DNA of 64,000 nt from contig NZ_NFMB01000004.1 in assembly GCF_002161215.1 (NCBI RefSeq), positions 1 through 64,000 of the forward strand. Reading direction: 5' to 3'. The DNA comes from Flavonifractor sp. An10. Its GTDB lineage: Bacteria > Bacillota > Clostridia > Oscillospirales > Oscillospiraceae. The translations under genes and the position numbers were made by a program. Positions 25,247 through 50,204 of this stretch are shown here, in pieces (within the stretch, counting starts at the first letter, position 1; every line of letters starts with the position of its first letter). The notes beneath the pieces are model-generated. The model was not told where the DNA came from and did not search any database. It saw only the letters and a program-made list of their open reading frames with translations.

Positions 25247-25270
25247 CGGCGAGAGGGATTCGAACCCTCG
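25247..25270 (-). other. Isolated tRNA 3'-end fragment (T arm and part of acceptor)
   Basis: On the minus strand 25253-25269 reads GAGGG-TTCGAAT-CCCTC, a perfect five-base-pair T stem with a canonical T loop, followed by TCGCCG resembling the 3' acceptor strand. No matching D arm, anticodon arm or 5' acceptor lies upstream; that space holds repeat boxes. It is therefore a remnant, perhaps of recombination at a tRNA gene, not a working tRNA. Confidence 0.6.
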
Positions 25271-25290
25271 AGATGGCCCCCCCCTCATCC

Positions 25291-25494
25291 GCCTCGCAGA
25301 GTTTCCGCCGTTTGCGGCGGAAATCAATAGAAGGGATATGCGGAGCAGGACATGCGCCTGCGGAGCACACCGATACCCCTGGCCGCGGCGGCCAGGGCCT
25401 CCCCCGCTGTGCGGGGGAGAGGGGGGTATCAAAACCGCTGTGCCGCACAGCGGCGCGGCGGTTTTGTATCTAGGGGGGACAACGTCCCCCCTAG
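25291..25494 (-). repeat. Mosaic intergenic element, copy 1 (between glgD and glgA)
   Basis: Reading the minus strand from 25494: CTAGGGGGGAC hairpin, CCCTAGATAC, a hairpin arm AAAACCGC...GCGGTTTT, GATACCCCCCTC, two GC hairpins, GTGTGCTCCGCAGGCGC, GTCCTGCTCCGCA, an AT-rich run, a TTTCCGCCG hairpin and CTCTGCGAGG. The same boxes occur in the same order at 49882-50180. It starts 6 bases after the glgD stop codon; its first hairpin (25470-25494) can also act as a terminator. The 289-base gap here holds nothing else except the tRNA fragment. Confidence 0.8.
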
Positions 25495-48830: not shown

Positions 48831-49885
48831 CGCTGGAAGAAGTCATTCAGGGGATCGTCCCCGCCGATGAAGAGGCCATGGGTCGGGCGAAGGCCCGGTG
48901 GGACTCCATTGCCAAGCCCCTGGGCAGCCTGGGGGCGCTGGAGGACGCGGTGATCCGCATCGCCGGCATGACCGGAAGCCCCGACGTGGACATCTCCAAA
49001 CGGGCGGTGGTGGTCATGTGCGCCGACAACGGCGTGGTGGCCGAGGGGGTCACCCAGACCGGCCAGGAGGTCACCGCCATCGTGGCGGAGAACATGTCCA
49101 CCGGGGACACCAGCGTGTGCGCCATGTCCCGCGCCGCAGGCGCGGAGGTGGTGCCGGTGGACATCGGCACCGTCACCCCCCTGAAGGGAGCGCGCATCCG
49201 CCAGAAGTGCGTCCGCCGGGGCACCGCCAACATGACCCAGGGCCCCGCCATGAGCCGGGAGGAGGCCGTCCAGGCCATCCTGGCGGGGGTGGAGATTGCC
49301 CGGGAGCTGCGGGGCCGGGGCGTCAAGCTGCTGGCCACCGGTGAGATGGGCATCGGCAACACCACCACATCCTCCGCCCTGGCCGCCGTGCTGCTGAACC
49401 GGCCGGTGGAGGATATGACCGGCCGGGGGGCGGGGCTGTCCTCCGAGGGCCTGCAGAGAAAGATCCGGGCCATCGAGACCGCCGTCCGGGTGAACCGGCC
49501 CGACCCCGGCGACGTGCTGGACGTGCTCCACAAGGTGGGGGGGCTGGACATCGCCGGGCTGGCCGGCGTGTTCCTGGGGGGCGCCCTGTGCCGCACCCCC
49601 GTGCTGGTGGACGGGTTCATCTCCTCCGTGGCCGCCCTGGTGGCCGCCCGGCTGTGCCCCCAATGTAAGGACTACATGCTGGGCTCCCACGCCTCCGAGG
49701 AGCCGGCCAGCCAGCTGGTGCTCTCTGAGCTGAACCTGCGGCCCTTCCTCTACGCCGGGATGCGCTTGGGGGAGGGCACCGGCGCCGTGGCCGTTATGCC
49801 TCTGCTGGACATGGGCCTGGCGGTCTATCGGGAGATGACCACCTTTGAGGATACGAACATTGAGGCATACCAGCCATTAGTCTAG
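48827..49885 (+). CDS. cobT: Nicotinate-nucleotide--dimethylbenzimidazole phosphoribosyltransferase
   Basis: 352 residues, activating the lower-ligand base as its alpha-ribotide phosphate. CobT features: RWDSIAKPLGSLGALED, VVMCADNGVVAEGVTQTG, LATGEMGIGNTTTSSALAA and SHASEEPASQLVL. No dimethylbenzimidazole synthesis genes (bza) are seen, so the base may be salvaged or another benzimidazole or purine used. The stop codon TAG is part of the first box (CTAGGGGGGAC) of the mosaic element that follows. Confidence 0.96.
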   Translation: MTLEEVIQGIVPADEEAMGRAKARWDSIAKPLGSLGALEDAVIRIAGMTGSPDVDISKRAVVVMCADNGVVAEGVTQTGQEVTAIVAENMSTGDTSVCAMSRAAGAEVVPVDIGTVTPLKGARIRQKCVRRGTANMTQGPAMSREEAVQAILAGVEIARELRGRGVKLLATGEMGIGNTTTSSALAAVLLNRPVEDMTGRGAGLSSEGLQRKIRAIETAVRVNRPDPGDVLDVLHKVGGLDIAGLAGVFLGGALCRTPVLVDGFISSVAALVAARLCPQCKDYMLGSHASEEPASQLVLSELNLRPFLYAGMRLGEGTGAVAVMPLLDMGLAVYREMTTFEDTNIEAYQPLV

Positions 49886-50204
49886 GGGGGACTTTGTCTT
49901 CTGAAATCAAGGTGGCTGACGCTTGATTTCCATCGAACCTGCCCCCGGCAGGTTCGACCCTAGATACGGCGGCGGTTCCCAAGGAAACCGCCGCCGATAC
50001 CCCCCTCACCCGCGCCTGCGCGGGTGGTTGCCCGCCGGTGGCGGAGCAAGCAGTGGTGTGCTGCGCAGGCGCGCAAGGTGAATTGCCCCGTAGGGGCAAG
50101 AGAAGGCACCCTGGGGTGTGTCCTGCTCCGCACAGATTTTGATTGGATTTCGCCGCGAGGCGGCGAAACTCTGCGAGGCCGTAGGGCGGGGGCTTGCCCC
50201 CGCC
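49882..50204 (+). repeat. Mosaic intergenic element, copy 2 (between cobT and cobU)
   Basis: This 335-base gap (49886-50220) has no gene. In order: CTAGGGGGGACTTTGTC, hairpins GAAATCAAG/CTTGATTTC and TCGAACCTGCC/GGCAGGTTCGA, CCCTAGATAC, hairpin GGCGGCGGTT, GATACCCCCCTC, a CCCGCGC hairpin, GTGTGCTGCGCAGGCGC, the CAAGGTGAATTGCCCC hairpin (50074-50103), GTCCTGCTCCGCA, an AT-rich run, hairpin TTTCGCCGC/GCGGCGAAA and CTCTGCGAGGC. A GGCGGGGGC palindrome at 50182-50204 follows. Boxes match the copy at 25291-25494; hairpin stems do not. Confidence 0.8.

Follow-up and report, generated by a model that had tools for sequence, protein, structure and literature searches.

What is the element that lies directly behind cobT and glgD of Flavonifractor sp. 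An10? The question is raised by a 64,000-nt window (positions 1 to 64,000 of the forward strand of contig NZ_NFMB01000004.1, assembly GCF_002161215.1), the whole stretch of DNA analysed here, in which a reading of the letters without database searches (the sequence-only reading) had noticed the same ordered boxes, with exchanged hairpins between them, in the gaps after both genes. The present analysis revealed a chain of hairpins that starts practically at the stop codon and follows many housekeeping genes in gut Clostridia resembling Flavonifractor. With a probability of about 0.5, it is a stop-anchored, structured mRNA border element that is dispersed by DNA copying, and the first hairpin of which (H1) is gated by the terminating ribosome. 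Below, genomes and loci are designated by G and L numbers, respectively.

Architecture of the Element

The six boxes were found in the order described at 49882-50179 (+) and 25494-25291 (-), and the stems of the last hairpin (H6) differ between the cobT and glgD copies, as had been claimed. The start of each copy at the stop codon was also borne out, the cobT TAG being inside CTAGGGGGG and the glgD TAA lying 5 nt before its copy. In agreement with the proposed folding into hairpins, both copies are more stable than dinucleotide shuffles (z of -8.7 for glgD and -5.8 for cobT).

The order common to the family is H1, AUAC, a variable H2, GAUACCCCCCUC (box 2), variable H3-H5 with a GGURU box between H4 and H5, an A/U-rich linker, H6, and CUCUGCGAGGC. 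The H1 consensus is CYAGGGGGGA-N5-UCCCCCCURG, which corresponds to a G-C-rich stem of 11 pairs in the family alignment. Three kinds of H5 tips were distinguished by eye (CRCAUGU, GAAGUGAAUUC, and GGCAAAGCC). Among the 84 units not belonging to type C, the variable place of GGURU is occupied by G in 40, by A in 15 and by C in one, the remaining 28 having been missed by the simple pattern used. The linker is 12-15 nt long, and its A+T share reaches 72%, compared with 27% in the preceding stretch, box 2 through H5 (measured in 20 elements with both neighbours of the linker recognisable). The end box is missing from the groES copies of other species. The extra sequence of the cobT copy is outside the common plan: a module similar to that inserted in its H1 was seen by eye in the groES copy of the congener G019, and the repeat in its H5 loop has relatives elsewhere in the same genome.

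Copies and Distribution

The sequence-only reading was to be given up if the genome held no further copies. DNA searches with both copies, together with the covariance model R1 (built on 24 sequences, of which this genome contributed 10), led to 13 copies of types A and B at stop codons, all of them located -4 to 8 nt from the stop. The R1 search of this genome gave 31 matches at E ≤ 1, some of which hit the reverse strand of copies also matched on the forward strand. Also found were two type C units (L199 and L200), one incomplete copy (L041, 192 nt), and one in which the first module is a variant (L198). A two-box pattern gave no matches in this genome, the pattern being too strict.

The H1 pattern is present in 57 stretches of the genome_contigs collection, the titles of which name Flavonifractor, Oscillibacter, Dysosmobacter, Pseudoflavonifractor, Candidatus Scatomorpha and others, or, in some cases, only Clostridiales, Eubacteriales or bacterium. 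No match to it was obtained in viral contigs. Searches with the model used filters that lose weak matches. Within the family, they revealed the element in 24 of 150 genomes (16 of 92 genera; E ≤ 0.01), and within the order, in 19 of 295 (6 of 148 genera; E ≤ 1e-4).

Anchoring at Stop Codons and Host Genes

A preference for gene ends, which had been predicted, is evident in 80 of the 84 units of types A, B and A-like: with the stop taken as the end of the longest open reading frame (ORF) ending near the element, its distance from the element start is within -4 to +15 nt in 64/66 type A, 13/15 type B and 3/3 A-like units, and in none of the five type C units. These 89 distinct units had to pass the H1 and H2 patterns, by which cobT itself, khpA (L040), L105, L136 (38 nt from the stop), L146 and others were excluded. 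One of the type B exceptions, L076, has a V-ATPase K-like end close by in another reading. The same rule held for 30 of 42 later model hits, fetched after the rule had been seen (41 from other families and L294 from the same genus); one of them, L273, and L090 of the first set apparently represent a single contig (52121 bases each), which is a miss in both sets. Under a stricter ORF rule and with L294 excluded, 29 of 41 hits fit, while only 2 of 41 fit when the opposite element end was measured on the other strand. Random control positions fit in 740 of 8000 cases in the later loci and in 1396 of 17,000 in the first set (8-9%). All these counts are based on open-frame rules for ORFs, and orthologous loci among them are not independent. 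The R2 repeat, considered as a further control, had an ORF end at -2 in 2 of 13 cases and at 28-29 in another 2 of 13; it was measured from an inner motif that itself holds TGA, and was left unused as unclean.

Five copies (L093, L115, L118, L123 and L145) are located, by eye, 1-9 nt from the stop despite a following terminator-like hairpin or convergent gene; thus, mere tolerance of insertion behind stop codons is less likely. They lie behind a gene ending in GGRTVGSGVVIAINE, which, judging by this C-terminus, we take to be tuf, or behind its convergent neighbour. At L115 and L118, the tuf-like gene and its convergent neighbour each seem, by eye, to have an H1-like hairpin at their own stop.

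The best matches of the upstream proteins are glgD, cobT, purF, atpG, V-ATPase K, RelA/SpoT, purM, V-ATPase F and a KH-domain protein (those to purF, V-ATPase K, RelA and KH being under the curated cut-offs, and RelA being clipped by the locus end), together with a mannosyltransferase, FtsW/RodA, a response regulator and groES. A co-directional ORF follows all of the 13 copies examined in this genome (simple ORF rule). Downstream products match the Pfam families of a PHP domain, a V-ATPase alpha/beta-type subunit and glycosyltransferase 28 (MurG-like); the ORF downstream of relA had no Pfam match, and glgA, cobU, groEL, purM, purN, atpD and rimM were recognised downstream by eye only. Stop-codon read-through was considered as well and rejected by eye, the element's own CTAG being a stop in one frame.

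Covariation of the Stems

Compensatory changes, also predicted, are abundant: 28 of 52 pairs of the 24-row alignment are altered on both sides, with 167 such cells compared with 47.0 in shuffles. In total, 93.7% of the 1217 cells pair versus 80.0% in shuffles, and pairing drops to 42-49% when the partner is slid by 1-3 columns. RNAalifold recovered the same hairpins, with double changes in 30 of 50 pairs. In six aligned groES orthologues, three pairs show clean double changes and one a double change with an intermediate; one-sided changes occur in seven pairs, five of them in G016 or its comparisons.

Linkage between H1 and Box 2

The G-tract of H1 and the distant GAUACCCCCC box were found to vary together in 111 units other than the cobT copy. 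Tracts of six or more G are accompanied by six or more C of box 2 in 59 units and by fewer in 7, whereas G5 goes with six or more C in 3 units and with fewer in 42 (Spearman 0.74). H1 and box 2 are of the same type in 68 A/A and 15 B/B units with no A/B mixtures; where either side is of type C, four of six units agree. One inner H2 type is shared by 35 A and 8 B units, another occurs in 19 A and no B units of the same set, and GTTCC-type H2 accompanies B-type boxes in L297 and L298. At the same orthologous gene end (AAMIAIV), L070 is of type A and L074 of type B: the 35-nt H2 is identical and so, by eye, is the H5 core, while H1 and box 2-H3-H4 differ in type. Within genome G359, L274 and L282, both missed by the pattern behind the 111-unit count, combine G6 with C6, while L286 and L290 combine AG5 with UC5 or AC5. 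As the units fall into few subtypes, the linkage represents few independent events (A/B, A/C and the G359 switch).

It is conceivable, though rather unlikely, that this linkage reflects a ribosome-gated RNA switch, in which the G-tract on the stop side would pair with the near C-tract (H1) and would also be contacted by the far one (box 2), which would either exchange strands with H1 or join it as the third strand of a triple helix (C+.G-C / U.A-U), H2 being a replaceable joint. The G359 units fit a parallel third strand better than antiparallel exchange because the first place of each tract is changed, whereas strand exchange fits many type B copies, where GGGGGUAUC and GAUACCCCC are complementary. 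If such a switch existed, its state would report translation of the upstream gene, and a triple helix would add a response to pH.

Vertical Conservation and DNA Copying

Inspection by eye of groES, found in 19 of 20 congeneric genomes, showed at its stop a full element at seven loci, a variant at one, a remnant at one, and H5/H6-like hairpins only at one; of the remaining loci, six have a short spacer in which H1-H5 are lacking, and three an insert of another kind. Six of the full copies, from six species, are 0.879-0.962 identical in 15 pairwise comparisons (the seventh, from G000, was excluded for its length). Four-fold degenerate sites of groES/groEL are 0.717-0.889 identical, which is below the element in all 15 pairs (59-208 sites per pair); gene conversion could add to this likeness. 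Among 87 units, the median identity is 0.770 for pairs at the same gene and 0.673 for pairs at different genes. The copies are homogenised within genomes, and both vertical keeping and DNA copying operate.

Function in the Transcript versus Selfish DNA

Several observations weigh against a role of the element in the transcript. The alignment has no excess of further pair types (50 versus 50.1 in shuffles), and a contact between GAUACC and GGURU is missing from the RNAalifold consensus. G-U pairs are nearly absent: with H4 omitted from the pair-type counts, since it has two registers merged in the alignment structure, the 1014 pair cells comprise 964 Watson-Crick, 11 G-U, 23 A-C and 16 other combinations, G-U thus being no commoner than A-C. 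In the same genome, G-U accounts for 46 of 689 pairs in 33 control tRNAs taken around the best 30 of 51 tRNA matches (Fisher p about 4e-10), and for 9 of 73 pairs in a smaller first control of three tRNAs; as ARAGORN may under-report mismatches, the G-U share alone was compared. Because the stems are near-strictly Watson-Crick, upkeep of palindromes at the DNA level or exchange of modules or whole arms would give the same covariation, and, G-U pairs being rare, covariation alone is no proof of an RNA role. Of the earlier argument that changed paired bases indicate a structured RNA, the covariation stands, but the conclusion does not follow from it. The arms are maintained as near-strict palindromes, with which an RNA role remains compatible. 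Nor is a strand favoured: the antisense strand of the glgD copy folds equally well (z -8.9), so folding energy does not discriminate, and the counts of A-C and G-U (23 and 11) reverse to 7 and 11 once two edge pairs are removed. Furthermore, the six short groES spacers among 19 loci indicate that the element is dispensable there, the closest relative of a unit is a copy at the same gene for only 22 of the 54 units having an orthologue in the set, and 12 of the 42 later hits fail the stop rule, five of them having no 60-codon ORF there. Many host spacers are short, and part of the anchoring could therefore be tolerance.

The strongest alternative, possible but somewhat less probable than the border element, is selfish DNA resembling repetitive extragenic palindromes (REPs) and bacterial interspersed mosaic elements (BIMEs), the modules of which would be copied through the action of a tyrosine (HUH) transposase or through template switching, without host benefit, insertion being best tolerated just behind stop codons. 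It is consistent with the strictly Watson-Crick stems, with near-identical copies at unrelated genes of one genome (0.95 for L002/L003 and 0.97 for L205/L206), with the shuffling of hairpin modules between copies, and with other repeats inside hairpin loops of the cobT copy; GTAG-tagged REPs likewise give ORFs TAG stops (PMC3733652). As for a transposase, 12 Y1_Tnp matches above the cut-off are present in the genome, yet no Y1 gene was found within 5 kb of its 14 best model hits (coordinates by eye). No duplication flanks the 85 units of types A to C, in which the longest common substring averaged 8.4 against 7.9 in the control (largest, 14); the variable gap to the stop argues against a fixed target site, and the lack of the H1 pattern in viral contigs and the conservation at groES above four-fold sites are also unfavourable to selfish DNA. 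We lean towards a function in the transcript, which is favoured by groES conservation, stop anchoring and the H1/box 2 linkage, and consider it somewhat more likely than purely selfish DNA.

We infer that the border element is transcribed with the mRNA, gated by the ribosome, cleaved, and protective. Its start at the stop codon would put H1 under the front of the terminating ribosome, so H1 would be unable to close during translation of the upstream gene. According to PMC4824070, the efficiency of an Escherichia coli terminator located 5 bp behind a stop falls from about 90% to under 10%, and uncoupling of translation abolishes this loss, which its authors attribute to ribosomes blocking the folding. 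REPs fewer than 16 nt from the stop reduce translation in work cited in PMC12306157. By analogy with these reports, gating of H1 is expected. Once the ribosomes are gone, H1 would close and, together with box 2 and the GAUACC-GGURU contact, the chain would pack compactly and thereby keep 3'-to-5' decay out of the upstream gene. Between H5 and H6, an endonuclease such as RNase Y might cut the A/U-rich linker, separating the upstream and downstream segments, each of which would keep a protective hairpin; such processing is plausible because an A/U-rich linker lies between two hairpins and an RNase Y gene is present in the genome. In addition, the copies were spread and made alike within genomes at the DNA level.

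Stalling of ribosomes at the stop, lowering the output of the upstream gene as by E. coli REPs within 15 nt of the stop (an effect of Liang et al. 2015, as cited in PMC12306157), is improbable: the 11-pair G-C-rich H1 would suit it, but housekeeping hosts such as groES and atpG would seem to gain nothing obvious from reduced output, and the further hairpins and box 2 would presumably be unnecessary. A transcription attenuator or terminator between operon genes is very improbable. The hairpins are strong, and each copy region has one terminator-like match (0.4 and 0.2 in shuffles), the cobT one being in sense orientation, with a 5-pair stem at H5 and then AGATTTTGAT. However, the match at glgD is antisense to the gene, a long U-run is absent, all 13 copies examined precede a co-directional ORF, and behind L115 and L133 a terminator-like hairpin separate from the element was seen by eye.

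If the element is active in the transcript, one copied block would set gene borders and expression ratios in housekeeping operons of gut anaerobes. Natural matched variants, with other stems or type A versus B at the same gene, would then offer a test of how structures at stop codons act on ribosomes and decay. The near absence of G-U pairs also makes the family a clear case of strong covariation without necessary selection on RNA.

Coordinates and Neighbouring Repeats

The features of the two annotated copies are listed in Table 1.

Table 1. Parts of the cobT and glgD copies of the element (window coordinates).
Feature	Position	Strand	Remarks
cobT element copy, type A, with two inserted modules	49882..50179	+	cobT by NCBIfam
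H1 of cobT copy	49882..49963	+	5' arm CTAGGGGGGA 49882-49891, 3' arm CCCTAG 49958-49963
cobT stop TAG	49883-49885	+	contained in H1 5' arm
Extra module between H1 arms	about 49892-49957	+	
AUAC box of cobT copy	49964-49967	+	
H2 of cobT copy (GGCGGCGGTTCCCAAGGAAACCGCCGCC)	49968-49995	+	
Box 2 of cobT copy, GATACCCCCCTC	49996..50007	+	
H3 of cobT copy	50008-50025	+	hairpin also in family alignment
H4 of cobT copy	50028-50049	+	hairpin also in family alignment
GGTGT box and H5 of cobT copy, dispersed repeat in loop	50055..50133	+	repeat about 50070-50119
A/T-rich linker of cobT copy	50134-50147	+	
H6 of cobT copy	50148-50168	+	
End box of cobT copy, CTCTGCGAGGC	50169-50179	+	
glgD element copy, type A	25291..25494	-	glgD by NCBIfam
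H1 of glgD copy (CTAGGGGGGACGTTGTCCCCCCTAG)	25470..25494	-	
Box 2 of glgD copy, GATACCCCCCTC	25419..25430	-	pairs with GGGGTATC before H5 in predicted fold
A/T-rich linker, H6 and end box CTCTGCGAGGC of glgD copy	25291..25337	-	

Other repeats were observed in and around the copies. The repeat in the H5 loop of cobT (about 50070-50119) and L009-L018 represent a dispersed hairpin repeat, GTGAATTGCCCC...GGGGCAAGAG, the enclosing stem of which differs between copies; several of its copies are preceded by an H6-like stem and a GCCTCGCAGAG box, the reverse complement of the element end box. At L002, L003, L004 and L045, GTAGGGGCG hairpins resembling GTAG-tagged REPs are found directly after CTCTGCGAGGC(T). 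Behind the glgD copy (window about 25251-25273, -), a 23-nt stretch is identical to the 3' portion of a tRNA gene (G000:C11:99233-99321), which, judging by its position, is apparently tRNA-Ser(gga).

Another dispersed hairpin element, distinct from these (query of 153 nt), has on both sides direct copies of the end of the adjacent gene, 20-56 nt or more in length and spaced 175-208 nt apart, at 11 of 16 loci (at least 18 identical bases; several loci are orthologous): L216-L218 (groES of G008, G012 and G014), L219, L220, L223, L225, L226, L235, L236 and L238. At L219, L223, L235 and L236, the gene ends in about KKAELEARLS; at groES, both copies of the gene end share 39 nt and, by eye, their last codons differ synonymously only. 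The Y1 transposase genes include two sets of equal scores, likely IS200-type copies: one of 183 codons (G000:C8:480950, C9:345354, C9:417709 and C11:169264) and one of 159 codons (C8:481694, C9:301727, C12:195020, C13:82470 and C13:115340).

Comparison with Known Systems

The family is built unlike REPs, yet placed like stop-proximal REPs, and no earlier description was found. Among the literature matches listed, no title or abstract beginning described this element; a term search of the main text of PMC8040213 did not find it either, although an unnamed entry in its supplements is possible. The curated Rfam covariance models gave no match to the element above the gathering score in the window or at four loci: at gathering scores, the window contains three riboswitches only, all away from the element, and the four loci at E ≤ 5 yielded four matches, all under the gathering score. 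One of these four, a tRNA-Sec match (22.5 bits, E 1.2), overlaps both the glgD copy, at its end, and the tRNA-like fragment that follows.

The attC site of integrons is one long imperfect stem with R boxes, whereas the consensus of this family, compared by stem plan alone, is a chain of separate hairpins. Bacterial miniature inverted-repeat transposable elements (ERIC, RU and Correia elements) are short, dispersed intergenic repeats, as is the element described here; unlike them, it has no flanking duplication that could be found, and terminal inverted repeats were not seen in its consensus fold. Intercistronic processing regions consist of hairpins flanking an A/U-rich cleavage site. The succession of hairpin, A/U-rich single strand and hairpin between two genes is the same here, but one family serves many unrelated gene pairs.

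The E. coli REPs and BIMEs are similar in being dispersed intergenic palindromes in several copies. REPs typically number hundreds of copies per genome, and the 13 gene-end copies examined here are far below that. The element differs from them by five to six different ordered hairpins joined by conserved boxes, by freely changing stems, by a fixed orientation to the upstream gene, and by the linkage of the G-tract to box 2. It has no GTAG/CGTC tag, H1 of the listed units beginning with a C(T/C)A-G-tract stem. As in the GTAG-tagged REPs of PMC3733652, an end of the palindrome is able to supply a TAG stop; unlike there, C(T/C)AG is a part of the H1 stem. The GTAGGGGCG hairpins beside some copies are a better match to GTAG-tagged REPs and are separate from the element. 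In position, the likeness is closer. Effects of REPs near stop codons on decay and translation have been reported (Liang et al. 2015, as cited in PMC12306157), and 446 of 4072 REPs lie within 15 nt of a stop by the own count of PMC12306157; the same distance holds for 80 of the 84 type A, B and A-like units.
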